DNA from: Hydrogenimonas sp. SS33 | Lineage (GTDB): Bacteria > Campylobacterota > Campylobacteria > Campylobacterales > Hydrogenimonadaceae | DNA: 64,000 nt | Direction: 5' to 3' | NCBI RefSeq assembly: GCF_040436365.1 | Contig: NZ_AP026369.1 | Location: forward strand, 1,365,501 to 1,429,500 | Part shown: positions 15,511 through 24,173 of the stretch, piece after piece | Numbering within the stretch: the first letter of the stretch is position 1 | Layout of the letters: every line of letters starts with the position of its first letter | Program-made: the position numbers and the translations under genes | Notes under the pieces: model-generated | What the model was told of the DNA's origin: nothing | The model's input: the letters and a program-made list of their open reading frames with translations, nothing else | The model's database searches: none

Positions 15511-17106
15511 ATGCTACAAACGATACGCGGTAAATTTCTCGCCATGCTCCTGCTCTCCTTTCTTTTCGGTGCCGTTGCCATCGGAAGTTATCTCTTCCAC
15601 GCTTTCGACCGCGTCGTTTCGGATATGACGGCGTCCAACATCCAGACCCTCGGACAGACCATCTTCACCGCCGTGCGAAAGAGCATGGATGCGGGCGATC
15701 CGGCGGTGGTGGAAAAGACGCTTCATGAGATCAAACAGATTCCGGGCATCAAAAGCATCGATATCGCCAAATCGAAAGCCGTCATCGAACTCTTCGGCCT
15801 AAAAGCGCAACCTTCGAAAGATCCGGCGATTCTTGAAGTGTTCCGTGACAAACAAAGAAAGCTGTTTGACACTTACCGCTCCGGGTTGCACGAAAAGCGG
15901 CTTCTCGACCCCCTCAGGGCCGACAAAAGCTGCCTTTCCTGCCATGTCAACGCCAAGGAGGGCGATGTGCTGGGAGTGATGGATGTGTCGATTTCCATGC
16001 AAAAAAGCGACCGGGAAATCAGGCGGCTGGAGTGGTCCGTTGCCGCGGTGATGGCGGCCGCCACGATCGCTGCCATCGGGATCTTTCTCCTCTTTTTTGG
16101 GAAAAACCTTTTCAAACCGCTTGAGATCATGCGCCGGCGGGCCGAAGATATCGCCGGCGGAGAGGGGGACCTGACCCGCCGTCTTCATTTTGTCAAAAAC
16201 GACGAAATCGGCCAGGTGGGCCGGTGGATCGACGCTTTTATAGAGAAGGTGCACGACGCCATCGCCAAGGCCAAACAGGCCAGCCACAAAAATATCGATC
16301 GGGTCAACCATCTGCAACAGGAACTCGATATGGTGGAAAAGCGCTCCGGTACAACAATGGAAACGGTGAAAAAGAGCGTCGCCAGCGCCAAAGAGGTGGC
16401 GGCGAACCTGAACGAGACAATGGAAAAGATCAAAGAGAGCTCCAGCCACGTGCAAGCCGCAAAGAACCGAATCGGCGGCATCGGGGAGGAGATGGAGCGG
16501 CTCATCGCCCAGGTGCAACAGCAATCGGACGCGGGTATGGAGATGGCCGACCGGCTCAAAGGATTGACCGCCAACGCCGATTCTGCGAAGCAGGTGCTGC
16601 AATCGATCGAAGAGATCGCGGAGCAGACCAACCTGCTGGCGCTCAACGCCGCCATCGAGGCGGCCCGGGCGGGCGCGCACGGAAGAGGGTTCGCCGTCGT
16701 GGCCGACGAAGTGCGCAAACTGGCGGAACAGACCCAAAAGAGCCTGACCGAGATCGACGCAACCATCGGATCGATGATACAAAACATCGCCGATACCAGC
16801 GACATGATGAGCCGAAACGCCCGGGAGATTCAAACATTGAGCCAAGCGGCAGAAGCGACCCGGCAGAGGACGGATGAAGCGGTTGTCTTCATGGCCGATG
16901 TCCAGAGAGTGAGTGACAAGACGGTCAGAATGGCCGAATCCCTTATCGCCCGTCTCGACAAAACGGCCGGGGAGATCGATGCGATCGAAGCCCATATGGA
17001 AGGTAATCTCAAAAATATCGATGCCATTCGCACACTGGGCAGAGAGATCCGGCGCATCGCCAGCGAGCTCAACGATGTGCTCGATGCATTCAAAACCTCG
17101 GCATAA
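15511..17106 (+). CDS. Methyl-accepting chemotaxis protein with periplasmic c-type haem motif
   Basis: This 531-aa receptor has TM1 at about residues 9-30, a periplasmic domain of about 140 residues, TM2 at about 172-195, a HAMP domain ([23 protein letters not shown]) and a signalling domain with the hairpin-tip [21 protein letters not shown] and [23 protein letters not shown] at residues 141-145 is a CxxCH haem c site just before TM2, so the sensor may detect redox state, NO or O2 through haem. It is separated from the downstream FadL-type gene by 19 nt. Cytochrome c maturation would be needed for function. Confidence 0.93.
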
Positions 17107-17125
17107 ACCCACACAAAGGCAGACG

Positions 17126-18289
17126 ATGCAACCATTTTCCGGACCTTTGAAAAAAGGGGTACTCCTGCTGTGGCTGGGAAGCGCCCTCTACGCCACCAAC
17201 GGCGACCTGCTCATCGGCGTGGGCGCCCAGACACGGGGCATGGGCGGCGCGGGCATCGCCTACGGCCACAAGTCGGAGTCATCGCTGGTCAACCCCGCCC
17301 TCATCGCCACGACCCCTGTCAGAGAGATGAGTGTGGGCGCGACCTTCTTCTATCCCGACATCGAAACCAAGACTTCGGTTATGAAAGATTTCGCCCAGAG
17401 CGACAGCGACTTCTACGTCATCCCCTTCGCCTCGGTCTCCAGGCCGATGGCAGAGCACTGGTATGTGGGGCTGGGCATGTGGGGGACGGCGGGCCTGGGG
17501 ACCGATTTTGAAGGCAACCCCGCGCTCTTCAACATGCAGACCGAATTCATGCTGATGCAGATCGCCCTCCCCGTCGCCTACCGGATGGGAAGCTGGAGCT
17601 TCGGCGTGGCTCCCATCGTCGAGTACGGATCGCTCGACATCTCCTACCATCTCGGCGGCAAATACGTCGACCCGGATGCGGCAGATGACTTCGGTTTCGG
17701 TTGGTCTGCCGGGTTCACCTACGACTTCGGCAACGGGCTGATCGTGGGAGCCGTCTACAAATCGCCCGTGAAAATGGCGTATGACGGCGTCCTCTCCGGC
17801 GCCACCGGCGGCCTGCTGGGCGACACCCTCACACAGCCCGAGGAGGTCGGGGCCGGCATCGACTATAGCTGGGCAGAACACCACTCCGTCGCCGTCGACT
17901 ACAAGCGCATCGGCTGGGGATCGGTGGCCGGGTACGAGGATTTCAACTGGAAAGACCAGGATGTCTTCGCCGTCGGCTACGAATACGCCACGCCCCAGTG
18001 GGCCCTGCGCGCCGGCTACAACCATGCCGAAAGCCCCGTCAAAACCCTACCGGGAGGATTCAATAACGGCGCGCTTCTGAATTTCATGAACCTGCTGGGC
18101 TTTCCTGCCACTTCCGAAGACCACTACACCGCCGGCGCCAGCTACACCATCAGCGACATCTCCTCCATGGACCTCACGTTCGTCTATTCACCCGTAAAAG
18201 AGAGGGAAGCGCCCATTCTTTTCAACAGCACCATCACCAACCGGCACAGCGAGATAAGCTTCACCCTGCAATACAATTACAAATACTGA
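17126..18289 (+). CDS. FadL/OmpP1/TodX-family outer-membrane transporter
   Basis: The protein (about 387 aa) has a signal peptide ending near LYATNG, then the family's N-terminal hatch-like segment (GVGAQTRGMGGAGIAYG, SSLVNPALIATTP), followed by amphipathic strands and the C-terminal aromatic SFTLQYNYKY. The family passes hydrophobic molecules across the outer membrane; the substrate here is unknown. The ATG at 17126 is chosen because the signal peptide follows directly; the open frame extends upstream into the chemoreceptor. A 43-bp near-copy of its 3' end lies at 25538-25580. Confidence 0.88.
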   Translation: MQPFSGPLKKGVLLLWLGSALYATNGDLLIGVGAQTRGMGGAGIAYGHKSESSLVNPALIATTPVREMSVGATFFYPDIETKTSVMKDFAQSDSDFYVIPFASVSRPMAEHWYVGLGMWGTAGLGTDFEGNPALFNMQTEFMLMQIALPVAYRMGSWSFGVAPIVEYGSLDISYHLGGKYVDPDAADDFGFGWSAGFTYDFGNGLIVGAVYKSPVKMAYDGVLSGATGGLLGDTLTQPEEVGAGIDYSWAEHHSVAVDYKRIGWGSVAGYEDFNWKDQDVFAVGYEYATPQWALRAGYNHAESPVKTLPGGFNNGALLNFMNLLGFPATSEDHYTAGASYTISDISSMDLTFVYSPVKEREAPILFNSTITNRHSEISFTLQYNYKY

Positions 18290-18428: not shown

Positions 18429-19901
18429 ATGGCTCGCGTCGTCATCATGGGAGGAGGGGTCGCCGGACACACGACGGCGACGTTTTTGGGCAAATGGCTC
18501 GGAAAAGAGCATGAGATCATCGTCGTGACACCCAACAGCCACTGGAACTGGATTCCGTCGAACATTTGGGTCGGCGTCGGACGGATGTCGAAGGAGCAGG
18601 TGGTCTTCCCCCTGGCGCCGGTCTACAAAAAGGTCAATGTCGATTACCGTCAGGCCAAAGCGCTTTCGATTCACCCGGAAGGCTCCAAAGAGAGTGAGAA
18701 GCCCTATATCGTCGTCGAATATACGGGGCAGGGCAAAGAGGGCACAAAAGAAGAGATCGCTTACGACTATCTCGTCAACGCCACCGGGCCCAAACTCAAT
18801 TTCGACGCGACTGAAGGGTTGGGGGACGGAAACAACCAATTGGGAAAACATACGGTTTCTGTCTGCACGGCTGACCATGCGCTCCATGCCAATAAAAAAC
18901 TTCGTGAGCTGTTCGAACGCGCCAAAAAGGGTGAGAAACTCAAAGTGGTCGTCGGAACGGGGCATGGAACATGCACCTGCCAGGGGGCGGCTTTCGAGTA
19001 TATCCTAAACATCGAAAAAGAGGCCCGTGACGCCGGCGTGAGGGAGAATATCGAACTTACCTGGTTCTCCAACGAACCCTCCTTGGGTGATTTCGGAATG
19101 GATAGTATCCATATGGGGGTGATGGGTTATGTGGCGGATACCAGCCTGTTGGCCGAATCCCTTTTTGCGGAGCGGGGAATTCACTGGATACTCAACGCCC
19201 ACGCCCACAAAATCGAAGAGGGCAAAATCCACTATGAGCTAGTTGACGGCACGATGGGCGAGCTGGAGTTCGATTTTGCCATGCTCATTCCCGCCTTTGG
19301 CGGTGTGGGCCTCAAAGCATACGACAAAGAGAATAATGATATTACCGATCAACTCTTTATGTCAAACGGTTTCATGAAAGTGGATGCCGACTACACTCCC
19401 AAGCCCTATGAGGAGTGGAAACCCTCCGACTGGCCCAAAACCTACCAATCACCGGTCTATAAAAACATCTTCGCCGCCGGCATCGCCTTCGCGCCGCCGC
19501 ATCCCATTTCCAAACCGCAAAAATCGCCCAACGGCACGCTCATTGTCGCCTCTCCTCCACGGACGGGGATGCCCTCCGGAACCATCGGCAAAGCGGTAGC
19601 GCATTCGATTCGCAATCTTATCGAACAGGGAGAAAACGCGCCGCTTCATGCTATCTCCATGGCGGAGATGGGTGCTCTTTGTGTCGCTTCCGCCGGGTAT
19701 GGGCTCAAGTCGGGCGAGGCGGTCTCTTTTACCGTCTATCCGCTTGTAAAAAATTTCGAGAAATATCCCGGAACCGGGCGAGATACGGGCAAAACATTCG
19801 GAACGATCGGGCTTGCGGGCCACTGGATCAAATATATCCTTCACTATATGTTTATCTACAAAGCCAAAGTCAAGCCGGGCTGGACCCTCATCCCCGAATA
19901 A
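18429..19901 (+). CDS. Sulfide:quinone reductase-like flavoprotein
   Basis: This 490-aa protein has the N-terminal FAD dinucleotide fold (VVIMGGGVAGHTTATFL) and SQR-family segments (NSHWNWIPSNIWVGVG). Cys146, Cys182/184 and Cys418 are candidates for the redox-active pair or trisulfide. There is no signal peptide. The C-terminal amphipathic stretch (GHWIKYILHYMFIYK) would sit on the membrane. SQR enzymes oxidise sulfide to sulfur chains and reduce quinone. It is longer than most SQRs (about 430 aa) and heads an operon with cytochrome b and a YdhV-like enzyme, so substrate and partner may differ from classic SQR. Confidence 0.8.
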   Translation: MARVVIMGGGVAGHTTATFLGKWLGKEHEIIVVTPNSHWNWIPSNIWVGVGRMSKEQVVFPLAPVYKKVNVDYRQAKALSIHPEGSKESEKPYIVVEYTGQGKEGTKEEIAYDYLVNATGPKLNFDATEGLGDGNNQLGKHTVSVCTADHALHANKKLRELFERAKKGEKLKVVVGTGHGTCTCQGAAFEYILNIEKEARDAGVRENIELTWFSNEPSLGDFGMDSIHMGVMGYVADTSLLAESLFAERGIHWILNAHAHKIEEGKIHYELVDGTMGELEFDFAMLIPAFGGVGLKAYDKENNDITDQLFMSNGFMKVDADYTPKPYEEWKPSDWPKTYQSPVYKNIFAAGIAFAPPHPISKPQKSPNGTLIVASPPRTGMPSGTIGKAVAHSIRNLIEQGENAPLHAISMAEMGALCVASAGYGLKSGEAVSFTVYPLVKNFEKYPGTGRDTGKTFGTIGLAGHWIKYILHYMFIYKAKVKPGWTLIPE

Positions 19902-19919
19902 AATAAGGAGAAAACAACG

Positions 19920-20102
19920 ATGAAAAAAGAAGAGATCAATTTCGCGCAAGAGCAATTCAAGCGTACGATGATACCGGGCAAGGTTCAGAGATTTCTGCGT
20001 CACTGCGTTTTGACTCAGCTCATTTCGCTCATACACTACTCCATCCGGGCGCTGGGTATCATACTGCTCAATCTCCGCAACGAAAAAGAGATTCCGCAAT
20101 AA
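19920..20102 (+). CDS. Small protein of unknown function in the oxidoreductase operon
   Basis: A 60-aa basic protein (MKKEEINFAQEQFKRTMIPG...) whose middle (VLTQLISLIHYSIRALGIILL) is a weakly hydrophobic, possibly amphipathic helix. AAGGAG precedes the ATG at the usual distance. It lies between the SQR-like and cytochrome b genes with short gaps and the same strand, so it may be an accessory peptide of the complex. I do not recognise the family. Confidence 0.65.
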   Translation: MKKEEINFAQEQFKRTMIPGKVQRFLRHCVLTQLISLIHYSIRALGIILLNLRNEKEIPQ

Positions 20103-20157
20103 TCCTCCCTCTCAATCGGGTTGAGGATGCATCAGCAGACAAAAAAGGAGTGGCAAT

Positions 20158-20949
20158 ATGTTACAAGAAGGCGCCGGAAAAACTTCGCTCTTTTTCTTCG
20201 ACCACTACTGGTGGTTTATCTACCTGGTGCTCTTTGGCGCACTGCTGCTTAGCGCCTATACGGTTAGACCCAGTCCCTACTGCAAGAATGGCCAGGTATT
20301 GCGGCACGACTGGGCGGCGCGGTTTAGCCACTGGTTCAATGCTGTGGGGATTCTTCTATTGCTTTATAGCGGATGGGAGCTTGGCTTTTTGGGCTTTCCC
20401 AGGAGGGTTTTCGGAACGGACGAGATCCGTTTTATGTTCAACCTCCATTTTATCGGTGCCGCACTCTTTTTGCTCGGTGCCGTCTTTTGGCTTGGCAATA
20501 TGTTTCTTGATACAAAGAGGCTGAAGCAGCACGCCCCCTACAGCGGCTCTATCAAAGATGCCATTCTTCACTACCTCCACCTTGCGGGGCTTGTCAAAAT
20601 GGAGGGTGCACCGACTGGAAAATATGAAGCGAGTGAACGCTTGGCATTCATTCCGCTAACCCTTTTGGCTCTTTTTATGGGCATAACGGGGTTGATAAAG
20701 ATGACGGCACATGCGATCTATCTTCCGACCCCTGTGCTGCAATTTGCTACGACCACCCACGACTATTCGACATTCCTGCTTGCTGTTTTGCTTGTATTTC
20801 ACATTATTCTGGCTGCGGTCGTGCCCTGGGCCTGGCCGCTCTTTCGCTCGATGATCACGGGCTTTGTTCCCTTGGAATTTGTCAAAGAGCATCACAAAAG
20901 ATGGTACAAAGAGCTGCAAGAAGAAGGAGCCTGCGATGCAGAACAGTGA
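20158..20949 (+). CDS. Di-haem cytochrome b membrane subunit (FdnI/YdhU-like)
   Basis: This 263-aa protein has four or five membrane spans. Candidate haem-ligand histidines lie in AARFSHWFNAVGILLLLYSG, MFNLHFIGAALFLLG and HDYSTFLLAVLLVFHIILAA, the pattern of formate-dehydrogenase gamma-type cytochromes b. Such subunits pass electrons between a periplasm-facing Fe-S protein and the quinone pool. AAAGGAG precedes the ATG. Its 3' end overlaps the ferredoxin start by 14 nt. The size is close to E. coli YdhU, the cytochrome of the ydhV operon. Confidence 0.85.
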   Translation: MLQEGAGKTSLFFFDHYWWFIYLVLFGALLLSAYTVRPSPYCKNGQVLRHDWAARFSHWFNAVGILLLLYSGWELGFLGFPRRVFGTDEIRFMFNLHFIGAALFLLGAVFWLGNMFLDTKRLKQHAPYSGSIKDAILHYLHLAGLVKMEGAPTGKYEASERLAFIPLTLLALFMGITGLIKMTAHAIYLPTPVLQFATTTHDYSTFLLAVLLVFHIILAAVVPWAWPLFRSMITGFVPLEFVKEHHKRWYKELQEEGACDAEQ

Positions 20950-21643
20950 ACCCAAATTCGGCGGAATGGATCGAAGAACCTTTTTGAAGGTACTTGCCGC
21001 CAGTGGTGTGACGGCGACGGCAGGGGCAGCGTTTATGCTTCCGGGAACCAACCTGATGGTGATGCCCAACTCCAAAGGCTACCTCGTGGTCGATATGGCC
21101 AAATGCATGGGGTGTGTCAGCTGTATGATGGCCTGTTCGATGGTGCATCACGGCGAATCATCCCTTTCGCTTTCTCGCATTCAGATCCAGCAGGACGCTT
21201 TTCAGAAATTTCCCGACGACATTCATATGGCAGTGTGTCATCAGTGCGAAGATGCCCCCTGTGTCAACGCCTGCCCGGTCGAAGCCGACCATGTCGATAT
21301 TGTCCACGGCAATATCCGCACCATCGACCCCGACCGCTGTATCGGCTGCACCCAGTGTATCGACGCCTGTCCGTGGCTGCCCAAACGGTTGCAGTTCAAT
21401 CCCAAAACGAGGAAAGTCCAAAAGTGCGATCTTTGCGCCAACACCCCTTACCTCGACGAAAAGGGCGGACCCGGCGGTACGCAAACCTGCGTCAAAGTTT
21501 GTCCGGTCGGAGCGATTTCGTATGTAGAGAAGATGCCCAAACAGCACGACCCCTACGCCTACAATGTCAATCTGCGCGACAAAAGCTGGGTCGAAGTGGG
21601 CCATACCGACAAAGATTTTAAACTGAACGAGGGGAAGGTATGA
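20936..21643 (+). CDS. Tat-signal ferredoxin with four [4Fe-4S] clusters (electron-transfer subunit)
   Basis: This 235-aa protein begins with a Tat-type leader (DRRTFLKVLAASGVTATAGAA) and has four cysteine groups: CMGCVSCMMAC, CHQCEDAPCVNACP, CIGCTQCIDACP and CDLC...CVKVCP, the DmsB/HybA/PsrB layout. It would wire the catalytic subunit to cytochrome b. The Tat leader implies that the complex faces the periplasm, the catalytic subunit being carried along. GAAGGAG precedes the ATG at 20936, inside the end of the cytochrome gene. It overlaps the next gene by four bases (ATGA). Confidence 0.9.
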   Translation: MQNSEPKFGGMDRRTFLKVLAASGVTATAGAAFMLPGTNLMVMPNSKGYLVVDMAKCMGCVSCMMACSMVHHGESSLSLSRIQIQQDAFQKFPDDIHMAVCHQCEDAPCVNACPVEADHVDIVHGNIRTIDPDRCIGCTQCIDACPWLPKRLQFNPKTRKVQKCDLCANTPYLDEKGGPGGTQTCVKVCPVGAISYVEKMPKQHDPYAYNVNLRDKSWVEVGHTDKDFKLNEGKV

Positions 21644-23790
21644 GCGATATCACAAACAGAGGATATGCCGGGAAGATTTTGCATCTGAAGCTCTCCACGC
21701 TCGAATATGAGGTCATCCCTACAGAAAAGTATGTCGAGTGGGGTGGCGGCAACGGCATGGGAACCGCGCTCTACTGGGACTTTTGCGAAGATAAAACCAT
21801 CCAAGACGGCCGGGATGAGAAGAATGTGGTGGTCATCGCTACTTCGCCCCTTTGCGGTACCGCCACTCCCTCGGCCGGAGGCAGATGCGAAATTGTCGGT
21901 ACCGCCTGCGGGCTCTACCCCGAGAGCTTCTTTAGCCGCTCCAACATCGGCGGGCGGCTCTCTTCGATGATGAAATATGCCGGCTGGGATGCCATCGTCA
22001 TCAGCGGCAAAGCGCCAAAACCGGTCTGGGTGGAGATCCAGAACTCGCTGGTGCGTTATCACAGCGCCGAAGCACTTTGGGGCAAAGATGCCCATGAGAC
22101 GCAACTGAGGCTCTTTGGCATACTCGATCGCAAAAATGAAGGCTGGGGATGGCAGCCGCTTCCGGGCAAAGGAGCGGGTGATAGCGGCTACACGACCCAA
22201 ATACCGGCTATCGCGGCGATCTCTCAAGCCGGAGAGAGGCTACAGACGATGGCGGGGATTTTGCACGACGCGGGCAATATCTCGGGGCAAGGCGGTTTTG
22301 GCGCCGTGTGGGGTTCTAAGAACCTCAAAGCCATTTCGGTATTGGGCACCGGGGCGGTCAAGGCGGCAGATCCCGCCGCACTGATACGCGCCCGTTTCAA
22401 AGTCAAGGAGCGTTACGCCCCTGATGTCCAGAAACCCGATTTGCTTGCGTGGTCCTTTCTCTCCTACCCAAAACCCATCGCCTTTGCCGGAGACTACGAC
22501 CAAAGCCGCCGCTCGGCCTGTGTAGGATGTGTGATGGGGTGTCGGCAACGCTTCTCTACCGGTGTGGGCAATCAGGTCAAGTGCCAGGCGTCGGCGTGGT
22601 ATCTGGCGTATATCAAAAAATACGCCAAAAAGCATCCCGAAGAGATTGACCTCAATAACGAAAAACAGATCGTCGAAATCAGCAACTACGCCGCCGATCT
22701 GTGCAACCGCTACGCTCTTAACACCTACCTCTTTCAGCACGCGCTACCGTGGCTTGAGGGGCTTTGGCACAGAGGGTTGCTGGGTAAAGGCAAGCAGGTA
22801 CCGAGTGAACTTGATTTCGACAAACTCGGATCCAAAGCTTTTGTCAAAGAGTTTTGCGAAGCTTTCGCCTTTAGAAAAGACATCGGTGCGCTCTTTGGCG
22901 ACGGCTTTGTGCACGGCGTCATCAAGCTGGGCTTGGAAGAGGATTACAAAAACGGTACCCTCGATTTCCCATACTGGGGAATCCAGGAGCACGGATACGA
23001 CCCAAGGGCCGAAGTGGAGTGGGGGTATGCCTCCATTCTGACCGACCGCGACGTCAATTCGCATGAATTCAATCAGCTTTACTGGAATATCTCCATCTAT
23101 ACGCTCATGGGTCTCAAACCTCGCATCTCCGCCGAAAAGCTCGTGCATCTCATCGCCGAAAAGCTCAAACCCTATGTGGACGGGCCGGAGTGTATGGACT
23201 TTTCTGAGGAGAATATCTACTCGGACGCGGTTTTGAACCTTACACGCTGGTATATCCACTACAATCGCTTCTGGAAAAATTCTGCGCTCTTTTGTGATTT
23301 GCGCTGGGCCAACCTCTTTCACAGCAGAGGCGATGACGCCGGCAACGAAGGCGCTACCGGCGATCCGGAAGTGGGAGAGCAGGTCTACTGGAATGCCGTT
23401 ACCGGGGAGAACATAAGCATCGTCGACGGACTCAAAAGGGGATACCGCGTCATCGTGCTGCAAAACGCCATCTGGGCACTGCAGGGCAGACACCGCGACA
23501 AGGTGCATTTTGCCGATTTTATCTACGAAAAACCCTTCGAGAAGGGGGAGTTTCCCTTCTATATGTGGACGGTGCGCGACAAGGAGGGCAAGTGGCGTTA
23601 CGGCGATATCATGCACCGCAAACTCGATAGAGAAAAATTCGAAGATTTCAAAACCCGCTACTACCTCGCCGAAGGGCTCGACCCCAAAACCGGCTGGCCA
23701 ACCGAAGAGACACTGAAAAAGCTCAAGCTCGATTTTGCTATCGACGAGCTCAAAGAACACGGTAAACTGCCTGAAAGCAACGCATCATGA
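21640..23790 (+). CDS. YdhV-like tungsten/molybdenum oxidoreductase (aldehyde:ferredoxin oxidoreductase family)
   Basis: This 716-aa protein opens with GYAGKILHLKLST, and has the cofactor loop (GNGMGTALYW) and cluster cysteines C294-x2-C297-x3-C301 with C354 (AADLCNRYAL) as probable fourth ligand. The C-terminus (DPKTGWPTEETLKKL) closely parallels that of E. coli YdhV as I remember it, a bis-molybdopterin enzyme of unknown substrate. It has no export signal of its own. In the family the active site is a W or Mo bis-pyranopterin beside one [4Fe-4S] cluster. The ferredoxin and cytochrome b partners suggest quinone-linked oxidation or reduction of an unknown substrate. Confidence 0.88.
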   Translation: MSDITNRGYAGKILHLKLSTLEYEVIPTEKYVEWGGGNGMGTALYWDFCEDKTIQDGRDEKNVVVIATSPLCGTATPSAGGRCEIVGTACGLYPESFFSRSNIGGRLSSMMKYAGWDAIVISGKAPKPVWVEIQNSLVRYHSAEALWGKDAHETQLRLFGILDRKNEGWGWQPLPGKGAGDSGYTTQIPAIAAISQAGERLQTMAGILHDAGNISGQGGFGAVWGSKNLKAISVLGTGAVKAADPAALIRARFKVKERYAPDVQKPDLLAWSFLSYPKPIAFAGDYDQSRRSACVGCVMGCRQRFSTGVGNQVKCQASAWYLAYIKKYAKKHPEEIDLNNEKQIVEISNYAADLCNRYALNTYLFQHALPWLEGLWHRGLLGKGKQVPSELDFDKLGSKAFVKEFCEAFAFRKDIGALFGDGFVHGVIKLGLEEDYKNGTLDFPYWGIQEHGYDPRAEVEWGYASILTDRDVNSHEFNQLYWNISIYTLMGLKPRISAEKLVHLIAEKLKPYVDGPECMDFSEENIYSDAVLNLTRWYIHYNRFWKNSALFCDLRWANLFHSRGDDAGNEGATGDPEVGEQVYWNAVTGENISIVDGLKRGYRVIVLQNAIWALQGRHRDKVHFADFIYEKPFEKGEFPFYMWTVRDKEGKWRYGDIMHRKLDREKFEDFKTRYYLAEGLDPKTGWPTEETLKKLKLDFAIDELKEHGKLPESNAS

Positions 23791-24173
23791 GCCAGGAGCG
23801 CGACTATTTGCTAAGAGAACTGCCCTATGAGGAGTGGTTTGAAGCCGCCACCTTGACCGGTTCGAAGATGATTATCCGGGAAGCCATCGGCTCACTGGAG
23901 GAGCTAAAAGACTTTTTCAATCCCATCAGAGACGACATGATCCCCTCCATCCGACTGCCCGAATTGGCTGTTTGGCTCAGGGAGACATTGGGCGACAAGG
24001 TGCTTGCCGAGAAAGTCGAGAAAATTTTGCAGACAACGCCGGTCTATATCGAGCAGTGCAGGAGAGTTAGAGAGGCGGTGATAGAACGGTATGGGAAGCT
24101 TACCGGTGAAATCCAGGGCACCTCCAAGAAAATCGAGGAGTGTTCCACCCCCCTAAGTCAAAACGGCTCTTAG
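23787..24173 (+). CDS. Unknown 128-aa protein coupled to the YdhV-like gene
   Basis: The ATG overlaps the oxidoreductase stop codon (ATGA), so translation is probably coupled. The protein is soluble, mostly helical and acidic (YEEWFEAATLTGSKMII, ELAVWLRETLGDKVLAEKVEKIL). A dedicated assembly chaperone for the catalytic subunit would fit the position, as many exported Mo/W enzymes have one, but the sequence does not match a chaperone family I recognise. Confidence 0.72.
   Translation: MSQERDYLLRELPYEEWFEAATLTGSKMIIREAIGSLEELKDFFNPIRDDMIPSIRLPELAVWLRETLGDKVLAEKVEKILQTTPVYIEQCRRVREAVIERYGKLTGEIQGTSKKIEECSTPLSQNGS

Follow-up and report, generated by a model that had tools for sequence, protein, structure and literature searches.

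Which enzyme is encoded by a run of six closely packed genes in Hydrogenimonas sp. SS33, and does the sulfide:quinone oxidoreductase (SQR)-like gene at its head belong to it? The run occupies positions 18429-24173 of the window, by which we mean the whole 64,000-nucleotide stretch of contig NZ_AP026369.1 that was analysed. Sequence comparison divides it into two modules, a core of cytochrome b, ferredoxin, catalytic subunit and DUF5752-like protein, and a pair formed by the SQR and a 60-aa protein. The core probably encodes a periplasm-facing, quinone-linked molybdenum or tungsten (Mo/W) oxidoreductase built like formate dehydrogenase N (Fdn), in which the catalytic subunit forms part of a separate clade within the aldehyde:ferredoxin oxidoreductase (AOR)/tungsten-containing oxidoreductase (WOR) family. 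This architecture is well supported by the gene order, a ferredoxin with 16 cysteines, an FdnI-type cytochrome b, the AOR fold, the cluster cysteines and a cysteine at the metal-ligand position, as read from the sequences and a predicted structure; the direction of electron flow, the metal and the substrate are what we infer from it. The genes are as follows.

18429-19901, plus strand: SQR-like flavoprotein paralogue, 490 aa (PF07992 above cut-off; best PDB match Aquifex SQR 3hyv, 4.1e-42)
19920-20102, plus strand: 60-aa hydrophobic SQR companion with one hydrophobic segment; homologues flank Campylobacterota SQR genes
20158-20949, plus strand: di-haem cytochrome b of FdnI type (PF01292, 7.3e-18; FdnI 1kqf_C, 5.4e-11)
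20936-21643, plus strand: four-cluster [4Fe-4S] ferredoxin with 16 Cys and the RR motif of a twin-arginine leader (MDRRTFLK)
21640-23790, plus strand: AOR/WOR-family catalytic subunit, 716 aa (PF02730/PF01314, predicted AOR fold)
23787-24173, plus strand: 128-aa DUF5752-like protein (PF19027, 1.9e-4, below the gathering score)

Our open reading frame calls agree with the first-pass annotation on the six genes and on three starts lying inside the gene before, with overlaps of 14 bp for the ferredoxin and 4 bp for both the AOR and the 128-aa gene; gaps of 18 bp and 55 bp separate the 60-aa gene from the SQR and cytochrome b genes, respectively. The catalytic subunit carries the AFOR_N and AFOR_C domains of its family, with PF02730 at 146.8 bits (8.7e-43) and PF01314 at 71.1 bits, both above cut-off. 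Its predicted structure (pLDDT 87.9) has the AOR fold, with nine PDB fold matches, and a CxxCxxxC...C pattern provides the predicted cluster ligands C294, C297, C301 and C552. No signal peptide was seen on this subunit. The ferredoxin, whose 16 cysteines fall into four groups, begins with a DRRTFLK motif that is matched weakly by PF10518 (E = 0.006); the RR motif is kept in relatives, and the protein is 80-92% identical in other Campylobacterota. The cytochrome b aligns to FdnI over residues 43-257, with His58, His201 and His215 facing FdnI histidines and His97 within two residues of one. The FdnI type is defined by four haem-ligating histidines in a four-helix core, and these four histidines are all conserved in relatives. 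Like YdhU, the protein has one more hydrophobic segment at its N-terminus.

The order cytochrome b, ferredoxin with a twin-arginine translocation (Tat) leader, AOR, DUF5752-like gene, and then a gene for an exported protein of unassigned family (HYPb), is found in five other Campylobacterota genomes (G251, G563, G569, G628, G582) and a Helicobacteraceae metagenome-assembled genome (MAG, L058), so that the core is present at six Campylobacterota loci besides the window. HYPb was not found in the window genome. Among the matches listed, three Shewanella and an unclassified MAG (L059) share the order from cytochrome b to the DUF5752-like gene, and two loci (L061, L065) share cytochrome b, ferredoxin and AOR; at six more (L060, L062, L063, L066, L067, L069) the AOR follows a Tat ferredoxin, with no adjacent cytochrome b found. 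The ferredoxin-AOR pairing alone, with RR motifs, extends to further phyla, and throughout the window clade a Tat ferredoxin directly precedes the AOR. These taxa come from a profile search of contigs and are to be read as "at least these"; a contig search with the single window AOR sequence gave no match. Relatives of this AOR occur in two of 397 genomes of the class and in four more among 175 genomes of the G251 family, and conventional AORs are commoner within the class than the window type. A literature search for AORs in Campylobacterota found nothing. The DUF5752-like homologue lies 3' of the AOR in all Campylobacterota loci, in L059, Shewanella, L062 and L063. It may serve the enzyme as a dedicated partner in maturation or structure; for the 128-aa protein of the window, the fold prediction has no PDB match, and a literature search on DUF5752 returned nothing.

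The recurrence of this gene order in several phyla agrees with the earlier proposal that the AOR-family enzyme is probably exported by hitch-hiking on its Tat ferredoxin and forms part of a quinone-linked complex. In the mechanism that we propose, the apo-AOR would be loaded in the cytoplasm with its [4Fe-4S] cluster and a bis-pterin cofactor carrying Mo or W and would bind the ferredoxin, and both would cross the membrane via Tat on the ferredoxin's leader. In the periplasm, electrons would then run from the substrate to Mo/W (at Cys315), the AOR [4Fe-4S] cluster, the four ferredoxin clusters, the two b haems and menaquinone. Several points weigh against this reading. The Tat leader was called from its motif only. 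ModABC is present in the window genome, and TupA was not found there, in a search with one distant query. Lastly, the SQR gene adjoins the core in only two of seven Campylobacterota loci, and its side differs between them, being upstream in the window and downstream in G251.

The active site bears on the substrate. Canonical aldehyde-oxidising AORs have the glutamate of a PEYE motif at the pterin site (E313 in Pf AOR). In the window AOR this motif is replaced by NxxxC, which contains C315, and in most of its clade by NExxC; C315 is shared without exception by the 20 aligned sequences from the two cysteine-type clades, that of the window and that of YdhV. In a printed alignment matched by eye, 'MMKC322' of BamB faces 'VKC315' of the window. 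Both YdhV C336 and BamB C322 are reported as metal ligands, the metal in BamB being tungsten (PMC12096430). C315 is therefore a probable metal ligand, and the window AOR resembles the Cys-ligated group of YdhV and BamB at the level of sequence position. Because a probable metal-ligating cysteine replaces the catalytic-site glutamate, the aldehyde oxidation route suggested earlier is disfavoured: routine aldehyde oxidation by this enzyme is unlikely, and its substrate is probably not a common aldehyde. The YdhV-type enzyme CsWOR41 is described as inactive with 46 aldehydes (PMC13328260), which by analogy fits a different substrate for the group and is no proof of one.

The neighbourhood of the G582 operon is as would be expected for a Mo/W enzyme. 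WtpA, WtpB/C-like genes, MoeA and FdhD (L165:100-4877) lie just upstream of this two-AOR operon, with an AraC-type regulator between. WtpA reaches 366 bits against a cut-off of 355 and passes both of its curated thresholds; WtpB and WtpC are best matches that fall short of theirs. This is a hint that the clade can use tungsten.

Does the complex oxidise or reduce its substrate? In Fdn-type wiring with a periplasmic active site electrons pass to menaquinone, quinone reduction being energetically favoured (Fdn versus Phs), and the FdnI-type cytochrome b implies, by analogy to Fdn, the same direction here. Reductase use of such cytochromes b is known from Phs. We lean somewhat towards a dehydrogenase. 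With the direction reversed, sulfide electrons would reach menaquinone through SQR, and the cytochrome b, ferredoxin and AOR would reduce a periplasmic acceptor such as polysulfide, an S-oxide or another compound; all six genes would then make up a short respiratory chain driven by sulfide. A reductase would make sense of a sulfide-quinone donor and a quinone-linked periplasmic enzyme within one gene run, and of the co-inherited SQR paralogue; BamB, a Cys-ligated AOR relative, is itself a reductase (PMC12096430). The wiring speaks against it, however, and most core operons are without SQR, so that we treat it as a possibility of secondary rank.

The SQR-like protein itself has the features of an SQR, an FAD domain and three redox cysteines (Cys146, Cys184 and Cys418 match the SQR cysteines, and Cys182 is also kept), and is about 69-72% identical to its nearest homologues. 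SQR relatives at E <= 1e-60 occur in 111 of the 397 class genomes. A homologue of the 60-aa protein, which has no Pfam or NCBIfam family match, is encoded directly beside 23 of 29 other fetched Campylobacterota SQR genes, beside the window genome's own second SQR and beside the G251 operon SQR; the motif M[IV]P...R.C..WQ..RF is found in the small protein beside most fetched SQR genes (L005-L033, L138, L003). The SQR and its 60-aa neighbour are a pair of a kind ordinary in Campylobacterota, usually present without the core. The first-pass annotation had treated the six genes as one co-occurring unit to be sought in other Campylobacterota. The core order does recur there, but the pair stands mostly apart from it, and we reject a single conserved six-gene operon.

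Phylogeny nevertheless ties two of these SQRs to the core. The operon SQRs of the window and G251 form a 100/100 clade apart from 32 others, which include the housekeeping SQRs that both genomes retain, although long branches on both operon SQRs call for caution. Neither of the two has lost any of the SQR cysteines. This clade is congruent with the AOR tree, in which the window, G251 and G563 group at 98/98, and the 60-aa partners of the two operon SQRs share a diverged C-terminus. The G563 contig breaks off right behind HYPb, at the place that the SQR occupies in G251, and is uninformative. No SQR lies near the core on L163, L164 and L165 within the extent of these contigs; none was found in the genomes of ten relatives, in a search that had no positive control of its own and covered MAGs that may be incomplete. 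A second, strongly diverged SQR in G354 (L143) falls outside the AOR-linked clade.

Since the operon SQRs form a clade of their own, the SQR link is a lineage-specific addition, probably a functional one, and is explained most simply if the pair was gained once in this sublineage and rearranged afterwards. The sublineage (window, G251 and probably G563) would have added a duplicated SQR and its small partner, through which electrons from sulfide would enter the quinone pool that the core uses; a plausible reason is that reduced sulfur is encountered or set free in the AOR reaction. Alternatively, the pair stands beside the core by chance or co-transfer, without functional coupling, and to this we assign a minor but appreciable share of the probability. 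It would agree with the commonness of the pair elsewhere, with five other Campylobacterota loci at which the contigs, as far as they extend, show the core without an SQR, and with the change of side. Less easily reconciled with chance are an SQR clade common to two operons in genomes that each keep a housekeeping copy, the shared C-terminus of the small partners, and a proximity that survived rearrangement, which argues for function and is no proof of it. Going beyond a functional link, the clade could be another line of exported Cys-ligated Mo/W enzymes, distinct from that of YdhV, in which, in one Campylobacterota lineage, menaquinone couples the enzyme to a dedicated SQR to give a new sulfur-linked respiratory route, for example organosulfur oxidation with collection of the sulfide set free; we regard this as speculative and rather unlikely.

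The AOR gene was not found in the 17 other genomes of the genus, some of them incomplete, which suggests that it was acquired. GC content at third codon positions is 0.59-0.67 in the six-gene run, compared with 0.80-0.86 in five other window genes and 0.71 in an adjacent methyl-accepting chemotaxis protein gene. When the corresponding empty site was sought in congeners, the lipoprotein flanking the run gave no match. Upstream of the run, 139 bp from SQR and on the same strand, lies a gene for an OmpP1/FadL/TodX-type outer-membrane channel (window 17123-18289), itself preceded by that of a chemoreceptor with a CLSCH haem-c-like motif in its sensor part (15511-17106).

Variation among the relatives also deserves mention. 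Two AOR copies lie close together in L059, L061, L064, L069 and L165, which suggests heteromers or two substrates; in G582 the unit AOR-DUF5752-HYPb is repeated. A frame change interrupts the cytochrome b gene of G569 (L163:7579-8348), so that either the assembly is wrong there or the gene is broken. In Shewanella (L152:4609-5550 and L153), a LysR-type regulator is encoded on the other strand upstream of the operon and a putative exported protein of 245-279 aa downstream of it, which suggests substrate induction.

The first-pass annotation called the enzyme YdhV-like and proposed an AOR-family tree. The likeness holds at the level of the family and no further. The window AOR is 27% identical to YdhV and scores 176.4 bits on the NCBIfam YdhV model (PRK09849), under the curated cut-off of 868, and so falls outside that equivalog; window-clade proteins score 152-213 bits, and five YdhV-clade controls from four phyla 1035-1375. 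In a 100-sequence tree and a careful 48-sequence tree the window AOR falls in its own 100/100 clade, and the clade of YdhV and CsWOR41 is likewise distinct in the latter (100/100). When the two clades are forced together in the 48-sequence set, a sister relation between them is not rejected (p-AU 0.0585). Shewanella has both types: three of 117 sampled genomes carry the window-type AOR and 24 others have weaker matches, three of which (L149-L151) were fetched and share 46% identity with YdhV. We therefore reject as improbable the view that the enzyme is just an orthologue of YdhV (Class V WOR, Clade 41) from another host, in spite of the same export logic and subunit types and the shared C315 position, cluster cysteines and RDxxxH motif. 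A cytoplasmic aldehyde:ferredoxin oxidoreductase beside an unrelated Tat ferredoxin, suggested by the fold and by best PDB fold matches that are aldehyde enzymes, is very improbable given the constant ferredoxin-AOR adjacency in the clade and the cysteine at the glutamate site. Tat-leader ferredoxins at L074:553 and L085:2969 adjoin AORs of neither clade, and exported AORs may belong to several lineages.

The exported plan is seen here in an AOR lineage that the YdhV model does not cover. Its operons are conserved in both Campylobacterota and Shewanella, and Shewanella species in particular may be tractable hosts. Reduced sulfur, to which the SQR link points, is a concrete and testable hint at what a whole group of orphan Mo/W enzymes acts on.

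Among known systems, FdnGHI likewise has a four-cluster ferredoxin and a di-haem cytochrome b and is a Tat-exported periplasmic Mo/W enzyme. In the window, by contrast, the catalytic subunit is an AOR and not a member of the DMSO (dimethyl sulfoxide) reductase family, and it is the ferredoxin that carries the leader; this ferredoxin has no hydrophobic C-terminal segment. BamB, from class II benzoyl-CoA reductase, has the AOR fold and the ligand cysteine at the same place (KC322), but belongs to a BamBC complex (PDB 4z3w) and is distant in sequence; no Bam neighbour genes were seen in the core operon. With other Campylobacterota SQRs the window copy shares all catalytic cysteines, but it is a diverged, operon-type paralogue beside the AOR core. 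The closest parallel is E. coli ydhYVWXUT (Clade 41), whose Cys-ligated AOR, ferredoxin and YdhU cytochrome b with its extra N-terminal segment have been proposed to be periplasmic and respiratory (PMC13328260). The window operon differs in the clade of its AOR, in having one ferredoxin instead of two, and in the added DUF5752-like protein and SQR pair; counterparts of YdhW and YdhT were not found by BLAST. In E. coli, a flavoprotein gene, ydhS, lies beside ydhT on the other strand (L055:2132-3736). CsWOR41 of Cetobacterium somerae, a member of the YdhV clade that reaches 1165 bits with the YdhV model, neighbours a tungstate transporter, FdhD and MoeA, as in G582, and no cytochrome b is annotated in its retrieved stretch. 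Tat hitch-hiking and Tat ferredoxin-cytochrome b modules have been described (PMC10924467), and the Tat leader, from which the first-pass annotation drew the export of a normally cytoplasmic enzyme family, is no surprise, having been published for Class V WORs. These are Tat-linked, membrane-associated AOR-family enzymes described in 2026; the section devoted to them places them only in Clade 41, gives none a known function and names no Campylobacterota genus (PMC13328260). The class is defined by a WorS with a Tat signal and/or transmembrane domain together with at least one further subunit, and the window operon has the MDRRTFLK leader and the cytochrome b gene. The concept is thus already published, and what is new here is a distinct clade with the same plan and, in one line, a sulfur-linked accessory.

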